A stretch of 64,000 nucleotides of DNA from Methanocorpusculum labreanum Z (lineage in GTDB: Archaea > Halobacteriota > Methanomicrobia > Methanomicrobiales > Methanocorpusculaceae), in assembly GCF_000015765.1 (NCBI RefSeq), contig NC_008942.1, positions 697,921-761,920 on the forward strand, given 5' to 3'. Positions 7,725 through 53,329 of the stretch are shown one piece after another. The position numbers were made by a program, and so were the translations under genes. Within the stretch, counting starts at the first letter, position 1. Every line of letters begins with the position of its first letter. The notes under the pieces are model-generated. The model was not told where the DNA came from, did no database searches, and was given only the letters and a program-made list of their open reading frames with translations.

Positions 7725-7995
7725 GTGGGTTGGCGACGAAGGGGTTGCCTTAGCTTGAGCAAGTTTTCGAAGGAAACGTGCGAGTGCGGGTTGGACGCGG
7801 AACGCGGACGACCTTGGCGGAGGCGGACCGACCCATAGGGGCGGGCTTAGCCGAGCAAGGCTTTGCCTTGCGACCAAATCTTTGATTTGCGACTGCGGGC
7901 GGGGACCTTTAGGTCCCTCAGCTGAGCAAACCGAAGGGTTACGACTTAGTTTACTGAGTTCGCCGGCTTCTTTCCGGTTCCCCTGAGATGCTGTC
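7725..7995. repeat. GC-rich modular hairpin repeat, left side of the island
   Basis: Intergenic DNA upstream of metG with short self-complementary units joined by conserved GC-rich spacers: gcaagttttcgaaggaaac, gcaaggctttgccttgc, caaatctttgatttgcg and ggacctttaggtccc. The spacer ggcggaggcgga and the piece ttggacgcggaacgcggacg are the reverse complement of spacers in the 13.8-14.2 kb tandem array. No gene is visible here. Confidence 0.6.
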
Positions 7996-8316
7996 AGAAA
8001 TCATTAGGGGTATCAGAAAGAGAAAGGGTTTGAAAGAACAAATCCTGACTCCGAAGGATTACCTCGAGTGATGGATCACGTCTAAGGAGCAGTAAATCAT
8101 TTTGCACAGGGGAATATTTCTGCGAGAAATCGGAATCTTTTTTTTTGTTTTTGGAAAAATCTCTTATCTCACCAGTGGATTCTAGTGAGAATGATATTTT
8201 GGTGTAGCGTTCAGGTTATGTGTAATTTAAACTGATTTACATAAATACATTAATCCTAATTATCCATTTTTATAATTTTTGATGTATTGATTGATTACAA
8301 ATGCATGTATCATAAT

Positions 8317-8528
8317 TTATTTTAAAATTCTAGAGTGAATGTAGTGTCTCATTAATATAAATTTGAATATTTTCATAATATCTTTATAGCACTTCTCTGC
8401 AGAGATAACGTCCTGATATTGATATCCCATATTATATGTAGCAACTTCAATATAATATTCTATTGCATTTATAAGATCCCCTTATTCTTCATAATTATAT
8501 GCCATGTGATATAATGAATGTGCCAAAT
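8317..8528 (-). pseudogene. Decayed C-terminal tail of the TPR ATPase
   Basis: Directly after the stop codon of the large ATPase, another TPR repeat can be read in the next frame: DDNLNLAHSLYHMAYNYEE, then a stop where the other copies have lysine, then GDLINAIEYYIEVA, running to a natural-looking end (HSRILK then TAA at 8317-8319). Compared with the intact copies, one A is missing in the run just before 8546 (ATCGCCAAACAG against ATCGCTAAAACAG), and AAA has become TAA. Two small lesions thus removed about 70 residues from an ancestral longer protein. Confidence 0.7.
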
Positions 8529-11500
8529 TTAAGTTATCATCTGTTTGGCGATTTCCTTTGCTGAATCAAAACATTTATTAGCTTCATCATATTTTTTTAA
8601 TTTTTCATAGCACCTTCCAGCTGAAGTAAAGTCCTTATACAGATATTGCGTATTAGATTCATATTTTGCAGCTTCAATGTAATATTCTGCTGCATTTATC
8701 AGATCCCCTTTTTCTTGATAATTATATGCCATGTGATATAATGGATATGCCAAATTTAAGTTACCATCTGTTTTAGCGATTTCCCTTGCTGAATCAAAAC
8801 AATTAATAGCTTCATCATATTTTTTTAATTTTTCATAGCACCCTCCAGCATAATTAAAGTCATTATACAGATGTTGTGGATTAGATTCATATTTTGCAGC
8901 TTCAATGTAATATTTTGCTCCATTTATCAGATCTCCTTTTTCTTGATAATTATATGCTATGCGAGATAATGGATGTGCCAAATTTAAGTTACCATCTGTT
9001 TTAGCGATTTCCTTTGCTGAATCAAAACATTTAATGGCTTCATCATATTTTTTTAATTTTTCATAGCACCTTCCAGCTGAAGTAAAGTCCCCACACAGAT
9101 ATTGCGTATTAGATTCATATTTTGCAGCTTCAATGTAATATTCTGCTGCATTTATCAGATCCCCTTTTTCTTCATAATTATATGCCATGTGATATAATGG
9201 ATGTGCCAAATTTAAGTTATCATCTGTTTTAGCGATTTCCTTTGCTGAATCAAAACAATTAATAGCTTCATCATATTTTTTTAATTTTTCATAGCACCCT
9301 CCAGCATAATTAAAGTCATTATACAGATGTTGCGGATTAGATTCACCTTTTGCAGCTTCAATGTAATATTTTGCTCCATTTATAAGATCCCCTGAATCTG
9401 CGTAACTCTTTGCCACTCCTGAGTAAAGGCGACCTAAATTTAATTTGTATTTTTCTGCTTTGTTGCGACTCAACTCAATAATTTCTGTAGCATTATTATT
9501 ATATCCCTTCTCTATCATGGTTTGTATAATTATTTGTATTTTTTTTAAGGATTTTGCTAGGGAATATGAGAATTTCATATTATTAGTAATGGTATCAATA
9601 ATACATTTTTGAGCTTCATTGATTTTTCCTAGATATATCAAAACTCTGGCATAATCTAGACGAACACCACTGATGTGATTCATATTTTGTCCATTCATAG
9701 GTGATAATTTCAATGATTTGTTGAAATATTCTTTGGATTTATTTAATTTTTCAGTGAATTCTGGACTGTTTTGGATACTTATTCCCCACGATAAATACAT
9801 TTTTCCTAGTTCATTTAGGGCAACTGCATTGTGTTTTCTATCAAAACTATTTGCAGATTCAAGATAAAGAGAGGTGGCTTCTTCATAGTTTATAGGAGTA
9901 TGATTATTTCGTGAAATATCTATTTTAGTGGAAGCCAACATATTTAAAGCATAATAATTGGATTTGTCCTGTTTATTGTTATATTTTATATATTCAGATA
10001 ATATTTGAGCAGCTTTGGTGAGATGGCTACCATTATTATATTTATCTAAGATATCTCCATAGTGTAATAAAAAATTAGCATATGTTACTATGAGCGATCC
10101 TGCTTTAGGATATTTTTTGATTATCTCATCTAATCTATTATCTATATATATATCCATCTTAATTTTATCAGATTTATCGCGACATAATTTTGATTTTTCT
10201 ATCAATAATTTAATATATGAATTTTCTAATACTATTTCAAAATTAGTAAATTTTTCAGGCATTAGTACCTTTTCAAGCTCACTCAATGATTTAAATAAGC
10301 TATTTATCTCATTTTCAGATATATTAAAGAAATCTATTTTACATTGATTATTAGTTGCTTTAGATCCCTTATTTTTCAAATAATTTGCATATGATAATCT
10401 ACAAATAACATCATTTCCATGAAAGCTATCTCCAATACCTATTTCATTTTTATCCCTAAAATATCGCTGATATATTGATTCTGCAGAGTTATCATTTCCT
10501 GCTCTCCTATAATGAATTGCGAGAGAGGAATAATTTGATGGATCTATTATTCTTCTTTTCTTTTGTGTTTCGATATTTTCTAAAAATAAATCTTCTATTT
10601 TTTTACCATACATCTTATATTCTTCAGAATTGTGATCATATTTTCTAATAATATTATCTCTTAAAAATGTTGCGTAAGTATGTATTTCTTTAACATCGTC
10701 CCTATAATTTAATTTTTCAAAAGCATATGTATAACATTCAATAATTCTCTCATCTCTATTATCAGAATATGGGATATATCGACATTTCCATGCGTAATCA
10801 ATCCAATGATTATATAACTCAGATTGAGCATATGTTATATATATTGGGTTTATTTTTGAGTTTTTAATAGTATTTATATATATATCAGTGGCATACTTGA
10901 GATTTTCATAAGAAATCTTACCTAAATCGATGCATAAGAAAACATCGGCGATATCAATAACATTAGTATCTAGTTTTCCTTTAATATTCTGGATGATCTT
11001 ATCTACAGATTTATTATAGCAAGTATTTATTATCTGATTATATTCACTTATGATATCATAGTTTTCATTATTCGTTCCTTTTCTTATACCCTTCTTCCAT
11101 TGTCTATTAAGAGAATAAATTTTTTCAGGAGTGTTCTCAACTATTTTCTTTTCAAAATAATATGTTTTTAAATGTTTTATTTTTAATTTAATATCTTCTT
11201 TTTGCTCTTTATATGCATATTCATTTATAATCTCATCTAAAAAATATGATGAAACAAAGTAATCATTTTTGGTTAAAAATAATAATATCAATGGAATAGT
11301 TATATCAGAATTAATATGATAAAATTTATTTATAGTTAACCACATTAAACAGTACATTCCGCGTGGGTATTCATTTAGGGTGTCTACTGAAAACTTTTGA
11401 TTTGACTGTTTAAGAAATATAACTAAATGGTGAATATAAAATGGCAATCCTTCACTTTTTTCGCGTATTTTAGTTAAAATATCATCTTTATCCCCTGGGA

Positions 11501-12461
11501 GTGTATCATTTTCTACATCGTATTTTTTTAAATAATTGTTTAATATCTGATATAGATTTAATTCGTCTGATTTTAGTTCGAGGACAACATAGTCGTTAAC
11601 TGCTGTTCTAAATAAATCTGAGAGTTGTTTAAGGGAGTCAAATTCATCATTACACAAAGTAATTATCACTTTGAATGGGCCTATCCAATTACCATTATTG
11701 TCCGTGCCTAATGACAGATTTATTAAATTTTCAAATCTGTTCTTTACTTCTTCACTTGTATCACCATCTCTATATAATGCATCTAATACTAAAATAGTAG
11801 TCTTCGGATCAGAATCGCCTAAATTATCATCCCATTTTGATATTGCATCTGAATTTGGATTGAGAAATATTATGTTTTTTATTTTATTAGTAGATTGACG
11901 AAGAGATTCATTATTTTCAAAAAAACGCTCAATACTCCACAATAAATATATTGATTTACCAATGCCTGCTCTCCCTTTTATAAATATAATTCTAGCGTCA
12001 TCATAAAAATCAATCGGATCAATATTTGAAAAATCAATAACTTCTTTAAATTTATCCCAATTTTTATCGGTCTCATTTTCGATAAATTTACCGATTGGGA
12101 GATTTTCTAAAAAATCTTTATTTGATATCAAATTATTCAAATCACTTTTTTTATGAATATTATATTTAACTAATTTTCCATAAGCATAATTTTTCCCATT
12201 ATCACATTTATTCTCTCCATTTCTTCTGGAGGATTTACACATATTATGAATATATTTTAAAAATTCTTTCAATAAATCAGTGGTAATTCCTGTGATAATT
12301 CCTATGATAATTGTGATAACTATTGAAGATATAATAAGAAATTGGATGAATTGGATTATTTGACTGAAAATATTAAAATAATAATTTAATATCATACTAC
12401 TAATAATAATAACTAACAATGTTACTATTATAGTTATAATTATCCCTTTTTTTTGAAACAT
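8529..12461 (-). CDS. Membrane-anchored STAND-type P-loop NTPase with C-terminal TPR array
   Basis: A 1310-residue protein, far more AT-rich than its neighbours. Order: two N-terminal membrane helices (about 7-27 and 35-63), a basic linker, then a P-loop ATPase with Walker A GRAGIGKS (163-170) and Walker B ILVLDAL (223-229). A later GLPFYIHHL matches the GxP motif of STAND ATPases, which are oligomerising switch proteins such as NACHT, AP-ATPase and Avs. A long helical-repeat region follows and ends in four near-identical 76-residue TPR units. By analogy it would sense a ligand through the TPRs and signal through the membrane part; that is inference, and no defence role is proven. No partner gene lies beside it. 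The present C-terminus (AKQMIT) comes from a one-base deletion. Confidence 0.8.
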   Translation of the reverse strand: MFQKKGIIITIIVTLLVIIISSMILNYYFNIFSQIIQFIQFLIISSIVITIIIGIITGITTDLLKEFLKYIHNMCKSSRRNGENKCDNGKNYAYGKLVKYNIHKKSDLNNLISNKDFLENLPIGKFIENETDKNWDKFKEVIDFSNIDPIDFYDDARIIFIKGRAGIGKSIYLLWSIERFFENNESLRQSTNKIKNIIFLNPNSDAISKWDDNLGDSDPKTTILVLDALYRDGDTSEEVKNRFENLINLSLGTDNNGNWIGPFKVIITLCNDEFDSLKQLSDLFRTAVNDYVVLELKSDELNLYQILNNYLKKYDVENDTLPGDKDDILTKIREKSEGLPFYIHHLVIFLKQSNQKFSVDTLNEYPRGMYCLMWLTINKFYHINSDITIPLILLFLTKNDYFVSSYFLDEIINEYAYKEQKEDIKLKIKHLKTYYFEKKIVENTPEKIYSLNRQWKKGIRKGTNNENYDIISEYNQIINTCYNKSVDKIIQNIKGKLDTNVIDIADVFLCIDLGKISYENLKYATDIYINTIKNSKINPIYITYAQSELYNHWIDYAWKCRYIPYSDNRDERIIECYTYAFEKLNYRDDVKEIHTYATFLRDNIIRKYDHNSEEYKMYGKKIEDLFLENIETQKKRRIIDPSNYSSLAIHYRRAGNDNSAESIYQRYFRDKNEIGIGDSFHGNDVICRLSYANYLKNKGSKATNNQCKIDFFNISENEINSLFKSLSELEKVLMPEKFTNFEIVLENSYIKLLIEKSKLCRDKSDKIKMDIYIDNRLDEIIKKYPKAGSLIVTYANFLLHYGDILDKYNNGSHLTKAAQILSEYIKYNNKQDKSNYYALNMLASTKIDISRNNHTPINYEEATSLYLESANSFDRKHNAVALNELGKMYLSWGISIQNSPEFTEKLNKSKEYFNKSLKLSPMNGQNMNHISGVRLDYARVLIYLGKINEAQKCIIDTITNNMKFSYSLAKSLKKIQIIIQTMIEKGYNNNATEIIELSRNKAEKYKLNLGRLYSGVAKSYADSGDLINGAKYYIEAAKGESNPQHLYNDFNYAGGCYEKLKKYDEAINCFDSAKEIAKTDDNLNLAHPLYHMAYNYEEKGDLINAAEYYIEAAKYESNTQYLCGDFTSAGRCYEKLKKYDEAIKCFDSAKEIAKTDGNLNLAHPLSRIAYNYQEKGDLINGAKYYIEAAKYESNPQHLYNDFNYAGGCYEKLKKYDEAINCFDSAREIAKTDGNLNLAYPLYHMAYNYQEKGDLINAAEYYIEAAKYESNTQYLYKDFTSAGRCYEKLKKYDEANKCFDSAKEIAKQMIT
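8545..9380 (-). repeat. 228-bp coding tandem repeats (TPR units in A-B-A-B order)
   Basis: The end of the ATPase gene has four copies of a 76-codon unit with very high DNA identity. Two versions alternate: A carries PQHLYNDFNYAGGCYEKLKK and B carries TQYL..DFTSAGRCYEKLKK. The order A-B-A-B indicates that a 456-bp two-unit block was duplicated recently. A fifth, damaged unit lies beyond the stop codon. Confidence 0.85.
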
Positions 12462-12695
12462 ATTGTTGATCTACAGGCTATAATTAGAAGTATTCTACAA
12501 TAAAGTTTTGCTATAAAGAGATTTTCATCATTCAATCCGCATCAGATGATATTGATGTACAAAATAGAGCCATTTTTGTAAGGAAATCTGGCAGACTGAA
12601 AATGTACGTTTGAAAAAGATGAAATTATATCATGAGAAAAGCATATTGCATCATCTAGTAACATACATTAAAAAAGAGTTGCTCATATCCAAAAA

Positions 12696-12857
12696 TCACG
12701 CCAGGACGACATAACTCTCCGCATTGTTGGCACTGTTCAGCCGCAAACTCTTCCATACCCTTGCATGCCTGCTAGTCTCCTTCGAAAACTTACTCGGCCT
12801 TGGCCGCATCTTTTGGGCAACCTGTTTCCTTATGGTAATATGAGAGTTTTTGATCAT
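12696..12857 (-). CDS. Possible small basic protein (53 aa), doubtful
   Basis: The ORF begins MIKNSHITIRKQVAQKMRPR and ends NNAESYVVLA. It is rich in Arg, Lys and Ser, has no membrane segment and no clear Shine-Dalgarno sequence. It could be the remnant of a longer gene. I do not recognise it; it is listed because its composition is less random than that of the ORFs around it. Confidence 0.2.
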   Translation of the reverse strand: MIKNSHITIRKQVAQKMRPRPSKFSKETSRHARVWKSLRLNSANNAESYVVLA

Positions 12858-12952
12858 ATTTTTGGGGGACAAGGCCGTGACTTCGGAGTGGAGCGGTCAC
12901 ATTGATATGCAATTGTTTAGATATACCCATTTTGTCATATTTTTGCTGTGTG

Positions 12953-13202
12953 GGTTGACGTCAGACGGCAGACGTCAGGTTGTTTTTATGGAAAACAGAT
13001 ACCCCGGGAATTTTTTGGGACTTTTTTCTTCTTTCATTTTTTGACTTTGTGTTAAATATATATAGTTTTAGAAAGAAAGAAATAACACAAGAGTATTTTG
13101 GCATCACATCTCTCTCGGGAGAGTGTGGCTCGATTTTTCAGGGTAGTTCTTTTTTTCTGAAAAGACAGGTGACGTCTGACGTCTGCCGTCTGATGTCAAC
13201 CA
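12953..13202. repeat. Inverted repeat pair enclosing 250 bp
   Basis: The left arm ggttgacgtcagacggcaga (continuing to 12978) and the right arm 13176-13202 are reverse complements over about 26 bp with one mismatch (gacgtc against gatgtc). The DNA between is AT-rich and includes ttaaatatatatag. The structure resembles a small non-autonomous element; no target duplication is evident. Confidence 0.5.
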
Positions 13203-13829: not shown

Positions 13830-14196
13830 GCGTCCAGCCCGCAGTCGCAAACCTTCGGTTTGGTCGCAAATCAAAGATTTGCTCCGCTGAGGTCGTCGAC
13901 TTCGTCGCCAACCCGCCTCCGCTTAGGCCGTCCGCGTTGCGTCCAACCCACAGTCACAAACCTTCGGTTTGGTCGCAAATCAAAGATTTGCTCCGCTGAG
14001 GTCGTCGACTTCGTCGCCAACCCGCCTCCGCTTAGGCCGTCCGCGTTGCGTCCAACCCACAGTCACAAACCTTCGGTTTGGTCGCAAATCAAAGATTTGC
14101 TCCGCTGAGGTCGTCGACTTCGTCGCCAACCCGCCTCCGCTTAGGCCGTCCGCGTTGCGTCCAGCCCGCCATCACAAACCTTCGGTTTGGTTAGTT
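13830..14196. repeat. 109-bp tandem repeat array (three full units and part of a fourth)
   Basis: The segment caaaccttcggtttgg recurs at 13848, 13957, 14066 and 14175, exactly 109 bp apart. Each unit has two short hairpins (AAACC-TTC-GGTTT and GCAAATC-AAA-GATTTGC) followed by a GC-rich spacer with gtcgtcgacttcgtcgcc and cgcctccgcttaggccgtcc. The units are almost identical. The period is not a multiple of three and the arrangement differs from CRISPR, since no variable spacers are present. ORFs across it are artefacts of the repeat. Confidence 0.9.
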
Positions 14197-17699: not shown

Positions 17700-18485
17700 A
17701 TGCGTACCCTCACTTTTCCGGTCCGGTCCCTTGGTTCCGTTCTTCCAATGGACACCGATCCATCCGCTCTTACCGAATGGCTTTCAAAGCGGCGCGGCAA
17801 AGAGACCGATCTTACCACCTGGAATGTCGAAACGACCCTCACTGATCAGCTTGAGTTCGTCGATTTTCCTGCGGCAGGAGGGGAGTTCTACGCTGACCGG
17901 ATCCTCGATTCCTGCGGGAATGTGGTCGACGGGAACGTATCTCATGAATTCGATCCTGATTTCGGCACGATTCTTGCCGACGTCTCTCTCGTCCAGGCCC
18001 GCCGGAAAAACTGCTGGTGGAGCATACCCGCCCCCTCGGCGCTTGACGTCGGTGATGCATACTTCGGGGATCCCGAGGAGTTCAAAACCGCTCTTTTCGA
18101 AACTGTCTCCACGCTCTGCCGCAGCATGCGGGATGCCGGCATCCCGGGCCACATCCTGACCGCGGACCGGCCCGACGAGATCGAGCTGGAGTATTTTTCC
18201 GGCAAACGGTATCTCTGGGCGGTTTCAAACGACGCTCTTCCGGAGATACTCGAGATCCAAAAAGACATCGTCATAACGGCTGAAGGCGTTTCGCTCCTAC
18301 CCGACCTTCTCGACTCCTTCGAGATTCGAAACATCTACATCCGTGATGCCGACCCGGCGGCACTTCGGTCTGTTCTCCGGCACATCGATCCCGAATATAT
18401 CCAGGTCTGCGGTGTCGGACCCGAAGAAGGAAGGCCAGAATACTGGGAAAAACTTGCCGCCGTCTCTGTTGAATCCACCGAATAA
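17700..18485 (+). CDS. Uncharacterised protein, 261 aa
   Basis: A soluble, acidic protein with no membrane helix, no cysteine-pair motif and no nucleotide-binding loop that I can see. It contains repeated alpha/beta-like stretches in the C-terminal half (DIVITAEGVSLLPDLLD, RNIYIRDADPAALRSVL, YIQVCGVGPEEG). I do not recognise the family. The ATG lies about 30 nt after a promoter-like AT stretch (gtatctaatactg), so translation may be leaderless. It ends 45 bp before the Fic-like gene and may share a transcript with it. Confidence 0.7.
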   Translation: MRTLTFPVRSLGSVLPMDTDPSALTEWLSKRRGKETDLTTWNVETTLTDQLEFVDFPAAGGEFYADRILDSCGNVVDGNVSHEFDPDFGTILADVSLVQARRKNCWWSIPAPSALDVGDAYFGDPEEFKTALFETVSTLCRSMRDAGIPGHILTADRPDEIELEYFSGKRYLWAVSNDALPEILEIQKDIVITAEGVSLLPDLLDSFEIRNIYIRDADPAALRSVLRHIDPEYIQVCGVGPEEGRPEYWEKLAAVSVESTE

Positions 18486-52513: not shown

Positions 52514-53329
52514 TCAAATGCAATCTTCCTGATTATTCGATTCCCTGCGAAGTTCTGCTGAAACTCGTTCGTTAGCGACCTTTCTATAGCCCTCATCGAT
52601 CTCGAAACCGATAAACGGGACGCCAAGGCGGATCGCGGCAATCGCCGTGTTTCCAATCCCCATAAATGGATCCATCACCAGCCGGCATTTATCTAATCCG
52701 TGATCTTTTATGCACATCACGGGAAGCTGAATGGGAAACGTCGCCGGATGCGGCCGGCTTTCCCGGATCGTTTCGTACGGGATGAACCAGGTGTTTCCCC
52801 GGTCTCTGAGATCGCGTTTTTCCCCTCCCCAGCGGTTCACATTGCTCTTATCCTGATACGGCACGCCGGTTGCGAGCCTGTCGATCTGCACCGTGCCGTT
52901 TTTCGTGAAATGAAAGATGAATTCATGACAGTCGTTATGATATCGTTTACTGTTTATCGGTTTGTAATGTCCGGCTGCCACTCCTTCATCTGGAAGTGCG
53001 ATGGATTTGATCCAGTGGATCATATTCTGAAGAACAAATCCCTGTTCCCGAAACGCCTGCGCCACATCGATAGGGATCCACGGGTCTTTCAGGCTCCCGC
53101 CGATGTTCAGATAGAAGGAACCGTGATCCGAAAGAACGCGGTATGACTCTTCGGCAACCGTCCTCATCCATTTCAGATAGGTATTACGCGGGATCGTATC
53201 GTCGTAGGTCGTATAGGCTTTCCCGATGTTGTATGGCGGCGAGGTCACGATCACATCGACCATGCCGGGCGTTAACGTACTCATTCCCTCGACACAGTCC
53301 ATGTCGTAAATCCTGTTGAGTTCAGTCAT
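52514..53329 (-). CDS. DNA methyltransferase (N4-cytosine/N6-adenine), beta-class layout
   Basis: A 271-residue enzyme. The catalytic motif TSPPYN stands near the N-terminus (29-34), and the SAM motif [14 protein letters not shown] near the C-terminus (about residue 218), so the order is that of beta-class MTases. SPPY favours N4-cytosine methylation but N6-adenine is possible. No restriction enzyme gene is nearby, so it is an orphan. The start overlaps the FKBP gene's end by 8 nt. Function: epigenetic marking or protection against foreign DNA. Confidence 0.88.

Follow-up and report, generated by a model that had tools for sequence, protein, structure and literature searches.

The gene and its insertion upstream of metG

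The stretch of DNA analysed here, 64,000 nucleotides long and hereafter called the window, comprises positions 697921-761920 of the genome of Methanocorpusculum labreanum Z, a single contig of 1,804,962 bp whose GC content is 50.0% (PMC3035222). Its positions 8529..12461 encode, on the minus strand, a protein of 1310 amino acids that joins an N-terminal hairpin of two transmembrane (TM) helices, an nSTAND3-like NTPase of the STAND class (signal transduction ATPases with numerous domains) and C-terminal tetratricopeptide repeats (TPRs). The open reading frame (ORF), here referred to as the STAND gene, starts with ATG and stays open for its 1310 codons without internal stop. Its GC content is 27.0%, and 0.19 at third codon positions (GC3), against 53-57% and 0.65-0.73 in four flanking genes to which we assigned names from their sequence (metG, a P-type ATPase, an AtwA-like ABC protein and an Mrp/MinD-type gene); it is also solitary, separated by 846 bp from metG on its downstream side and by some 0.9 kb from a cupin ORF on its upstream side. 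A preliminary description of this DNA had portrayed the gene as AT-rich in a GC-richer environment and as standing alone, and both statements hold. We consider it very probably acquired by horizontal transfer.

Comparison with congeneric genomes delimits an inserted AT-rich interval of approximately 5.2 kb (window 7823..13023, no strand), to which only about 0.1 kb corresponds in congener G311 (blastn of locus L048 against the window). There, the match to the window runs up to position 7822 and, within that distance, a second match begins at position 13024, the interval with the STAND gene being absent and a 381-N contig gap of this assembly lying outside the junction; orthology of the right-hand edge rests on position, because the match at that edge is to a repeated element, described in the last section. 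In 14 congeners metG directly adjoins the homologue of window ORF 17700-18485, which is likely the old gene order, and in the labreanum-like group this slot has been opened, with the AtwA-like and other genes lying between. The STAND gene itself was found in none of the congeners searched. The slot of G164 holds only an acetyltransferase, that of G213 (L047:7693-11306) the remnant of a type ISP/IIG restriction enzyme together with an HNH/homing-endonuclease-like gene, and that of G391 (L050:585-4583, on a contig that ends before the other flank) an AAA_13 protein that matches PDC-S06 (E=1e-154), as well as a Fic protein of the SoFic type (3e-43). Judged by such cargo, this site upstream of metG has the look of a hotspot for defence genes in Methanocorpusculum, and it can be mined for further systems.

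An NTPase related to nSTAND3

The NTPase module covers residues 100-500 (window 10962..12164; this and all following features of the protein are on the minus strand) and was delimited from its match to the Pfam family nSTAND3 (PF20720), the alignment of relatives described below and profile-profile comparison with hhalign. Three of its motifs lie where the preliminary description had placed them: the Walker A motif GRAGIGKS (residues 163-170, 11952..11975), whose G-K is conserved in all relatives; the Walker B motif ILVLDAL (residues 223-229, 11775..11795), with an Asp invariant in relatives; and the GxP-like motif GLPFYIHHL (residues 338-346, 11424..11450), which reads NAPFYIRHL in relatives. 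A fourth, the sensor-1 region IITLCND (residues 266-272, 11646..11666), has Cys270 at the position where relatives carry Arg (ITMRN, ATLRD, TTREY, TSREE), a deviation that the preliminary description had missed. The protein therefore presents the Walker A and hhhhD-type Walker B motifs (GRAGIGKS, ILVLD) that mark STAND NTPases, a GxP-type motif which taken alone is weak evidence, a repeat sensor made of TPRs, and in the N-terminal effector position a hairpin whose effector role is predicted.

Searched alone against Pfam, residues 100-500 matched nSTAND3 with 17.5 bits (E=0.0034) and NB-ARC with an E-value of 0.027. For profile-profile comparison we used bona fide nSTAND3 members, which a profile search of the phylum Halobacteriota retrieved from 11 genomes, the domain being aligned from 11 proteins. 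The profile of the window protein and its relatives (A2) aligned by hhalign with these archaeal proteins at 97.6% (E=4.6e-12, 166 columns), in register across the P-loop, Walker B and sensor 1, whereas the best control, RadB, reached 68% over 61 columns and ABC, Mrp and helicase profiles scored lower; the window protein alone gave 73%, with controls at or below 2.5%. A profile search of the PDB returned first the KaiC-like protein SSO2452 (E=6e-5, 95 columns), then an NB-ARC protein (0.003), and lower down, among chance matches, NLRP9 (0.44). The possibility that we are dealing with a KaiC/RecA-like or some other non-STAND P-loop ATPase that has gained TPRs can draw on that first PDB match and on RadB as the best control, yet the nSTAND3 match is better by about seven orders of magnitude in E-value and is in register, the second PDB match is an NB-ARC protein and the GxP-like motif is present; we regard this alternative as very improbable. 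The STAND ATPase proposed in the preliminary description is thus borne out, the nSTAND3 match standing far above the RecA-type, ABC, MinD and helicase controls, and only a short KaiC/RecA-like P-loop match preceding the NB-ARC protein in the PDB profile search. By these profile comparisons, the NTPase is almost certainly a STAND module related to nSTAND3. A PF20720 search of the M. labreanum genome at E-values up to 0.1 was discarded, since at that level ordinary P-loops match, as they did in 14 of 14 controls.

Relatives and the N-terminal effector position

A single-sequence search of 394 genomes of Halobacteriota, one archaeal phylum, yielded weak matches in six other genomes, all of them distant (E down to 7e-12), and no relative within the genus or family of M. 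labreanum. One match, in G243, was spurious, as it contains five stops and reads antisense through a transporter-like gene. The remaining relatives (L009, L010, L011, L012 and L014) all belong to a single family, f10, which we presume may be ANME-1; searches of genome contigs, viral contigs, plasmids and phages returned no relative. Across the NTPase alignments (A1 and A2) several core positions never vary, among them the Walker A G-K and the Walker B Asp.

Four of these loci (L009, L010, L011 and L014) are the nearest relatives found. Like the window protein they have a related NTPase (24-29% identity over approximately 370 aa), C-terminal TPRs where the genes are complete, and a stand-alone setting; they differ from it in having a HD-CE hydrolase-type domain instead of the hairpin and in retaining the sensor-1 Arg. 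HD-CE, nSTAND3 and TPRs form one frame in L010 and L011, the HD-CE frame is followed by an adjacent nSTAND3 frame in L009, and L014, at a contig end, preserves HD-CE and the start of the NTPase. L012 (1648 aa) shares with the window protein the related NTPase, a long TPR C-terminus and membrane helices encoded at the locus, but these helices are on a separate protein: L012 itself is devoid of membrane helices, it has an additional N-terminal region ahead of the NTPase, and the gene that precedes it by 20 bp, in the same orientation, encodes a 133-aa membrane protein in which three stretches are hydrophobic. In the wider nSTAND3 set of the phylum, whose N-termini were classified by eye, L087 begins with a SIR2-like domain (Avs5-like), L076 with a Mrr-like nuclease inside what reads from its sequence as a type I restriction operon, and others with cyclase-like or nitrilase-like domains; no membrane helix was detected in this set. 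Because relatives carry HD-CE, SIR2-like, Mrr-like and other domains at the place of the hairpin, this place is the variable effector position, an arrangement with exchangeable effectors as in STAND defence receptors. The preliminary description had advised attention to homologues in housekeeping operons, and the relatives of the STAND gene do not reside in such operons.

As a separate observation, the loci L010, L011 and L084 have different nSTAND3-type genes (HD-CE-TPR and nitrilase-type) near the gene pair hisH-carA, in different f10 genera and on different sides of the pair.

The closest experimentally studied system by its parts is Avs5 (AVAST type 5), an anti-phage receptor with the layout SIR2-nSTAND3-TPR/Sel1, which has in common with the window protein a central nSTAND3-type NTPase, a C-terminal TPR-type sensor and an N-terminal effector position (PMC12931631). 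It differs in that its effector is SIR2 and not a two-helix hairpin, neither Pfam nor PADLOC detecting SIR2 in the window protein, and in that the NTPase of the latter has diverged too far to reach the nSTAND3 cut-off of Pfam or to match any PADLOC model. For the hairpin there is a parallel, limited to mechanism, in the type III CRISPR effector Cap1, a cytoplasmic signalling protein whose N-terminal part holds a two-TM unit that forms a gated, depolarising pore in the tetramer; its trigger, however, is a CARF-like domain with cyclic tetra-adenylate (cA4) and not STAND, and in its pore helix, TM2, the lining includes charged and polar residues (PMC12642688). The combination of TM hairpin, nSTAND3-like NTPase and TPRs has no match among PADLOC models, NCBIfam or Pfam architectures. 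The preliminary description knew of no such layout in methanogens, and we likewise found no paper on it in the open literature, a search outside which the main Avs and bacterial NLR (nucleotide-binding leucine-rich repeat) papers lay.

Membrane hairpin and TPR array

The N-terminal hairpin (residues 7-61, 12279..12443) was defined by Kyte-Doolittle peaks and by structure prediction with AlphaFold2 (AF2). The two membrane helices announced in the preliminary description correspond to hydrophobic peaks at residues 7-25 and 38-56, with peak mean values of 3.12 and 2.76, respectively. Single-sequence AF2 of residues 1-480 gave a mean pLDDT (predicted local distance difference test) of 42 and was confident only in residues 1-60 (block pLDDT 72-92), its remainder being of too low quality to show the helical ARC and winged-helix domains that follow the NTPase in STAND proteins. 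The Lys and Arg residues that flank the hairpin, K4 K5 ahead of it and K-E-F-L-K...K-S-S-R-R after the second helix, suggest that both of its ends are cytoplasmic.

The C-terminus is TPR-rich, as had been noted, Pfam recognising TPR_12 (E=7e-25) chiefly in residues 1029-1310. The array (8529..9377) consists of four tandem units of 76 aa (228 bp), each with two TPRs and arranged in the order A-B-A-B: over the 150 nt compared, units 1 and 3 and units 2 and 4 are 96-97% identical in DNA, and A and B units 89-91%. A versus B units differ in 11 codons nonsynonymously and in 1 synonymously, which under a 3:1 expectation is not significant (P=0.16), and no diversifying selection is claimed. A feature missed in the preliminary description is that repeat-unit DNA continues beyond the stop codon, in another frame, to approximately position 8434 (8434..8546, mostly untranslated, with a unit spacing of 227 instead of 228). 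Since this DNA is out of frame and the last unit has a one-base deletion relative to its siblings, the array has been deprived of its original end.

This could mean that the gene is a decaying, already non-functional copy of an acquired defence receptor. Along with the one-base deletion, the untranslated remainder has acquired another stop, the sensor-1 Arg is replaced by Cys, and the slot of G213 likewise contains a broken gene, the restriction remnant; against this, 1310 codons are still open at 73% A+T, Walker A and Walker B are intact, and the number of C-terminal repeats can presumably vary without loss of function. We therefore hold such decay to be unlikely and predict, with some reservation, that the present copy is functional.

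A predicted membrane-held defence receptor

The layout of membrane helices, STAND ATPase and TPRs is built like that of animal and bacterial NLR immune receptors. Taking together what can be read from the sequence, namely this architecture, the kinship with STAND proteins, the insertion and the genes found in the same slot, we favour, somewhat above even chances, a horizontally acquired single-gene NLR-like STAND receptor that is held in the cytoplasmic membrane by its hairpin and acts against viruses or other invaders. The part of this proposal that concerns defence is slightly firmer: the gene is probably a defence receptor, a role made probable by its position in a variable slot where close relatives have other anti-virus genes. 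In the mechanism that we infer, the cytoplasmic TPR superhelix would sense a viral protein or another signal of the invader, which would free the STAND module from autoinhibition to bind ATP and oligomerise; the hairpins, acting as effector rather than mere anchor, would then cluster in the membrane and open a pore or disrupt it, and the cell would stop.

Several observations weigh against this proposal. The hydrophobic core of both helices contains no charged residues, a test for a polar face was marginal at best (p=0.05 in one segment definition and 0.10-0.35 in others), and Ser/Thr/Gly residues show no clear clustering on one face, so that an anchor is as likely as a pore. By Pfam's own threshold the NTPase is outside nSTAND3, scoring 17.5 bits where the cut-off is 27.2, a value that the relatives L009-L011 exceed (31-35 bits); in addition, the PADLOC models do not recognise the protein, nor do those of NCBIfam recognise its NTPase. 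The hhT-x-R sensor-1 Arg, which in STAND proteins senses the nucleotide state, is missing, Cys270 standing in ITLCND; the four other rows of family alignment A2 all have the Arg, as do 10 of the 11 nSTAND3 proteins that were aligned, L085 having Lys instead. As only one residue deviates and the family matches in other respects, STAND homology is retained and canonical activity is doubtful, and because Cys270 comes together with a clipped TPR array this copy may be impaired. Lastly, the only defence-like neighbour among the relatives is a small restriction-enzyme-like fragment adjoining L011, the others being without clear defence neighbours.

Some of these points fit a membrane-tethered STAND/TPR protein with a signalling or assembly function unrelated to defence, in which the hairpin does no more than anchor the protein and the TPRs act as scaffold for a complex of the cell surface or of the stress response. 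TPR-STAND proteins also serve as regulators, MalT being an example, the helices are simply hydrophobic without a clear polar face, and the gene is solitary. However, a gene of foreign composition that is absent from all congeners searched, inserted in a slot with defence-type cargo in relatives, and whose own relatives have HD-CE in place of the hairpin, speaks against this explanation, and we give it a rather low probability.

Returning to the defence receptor, a pore or depolarisation as the output of the hairpin, which the preliminary description had also considered plausible, is a doubtful element of it. It is tempting to speculate on a one-gene archaeal NLR-like receptor with a membrane-perforating output fused to the STAND ATPase, representing a lineage outside current defence models, although we would rather bet against it; in the same tentative scenario, a channel of TM hairpins assembled upon activation would be analogous to the plant resistosome channels, but permanently embedded in the membrane. 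If true, such a receptor would offer a direct test of whether NLR-like membrane perforation arose in archaea too. The STAND gene and its relatives make up a rare STAND lineage that is missed by PADLOC and partly caught by Pfam, and whose outputs appear interchangeable: a membrane hairpin, HD-CE or a separate membrane protein.

Repeated elements and other features of the locus

GC-rich tandem repeats of 109 bp, with related inverted copies, occur on either side of the AT-rich island (window 13830-14191 and 7757-7950) and could serve recombination. Beside the insertion there is also a small element of 105-110 nt (window 13053-13165, plus strand), composed of a TATATATA box, a conserved CTTTTAGAAAGAAA...AACACAAGAGTATTT segment, a CTCTC/GAGAG hairpin and a T-run. 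It has three copies in M. labreanum, the other two at G000:C1:1223450-1223561 and 899459-899584, and 1-5 copies in seven other Methanocorpusculum genomes (weaker in two). Rfam returned no match for the element, nor for the intergenic parts; we consider it a candidate multicopy family of small-RNA genes. Inverted repeats of 26 nt flank it in the window (12953-12978 and 13176-13201), while in the copy of G311 this core is bordered by other inverted repeats, as if it travelled in different small mobile cassettes. Further away, window 52514-53329 (minus strand) encodes a Type II DNA methyltransferase (PADLOC MTase_II, E=3e-104).

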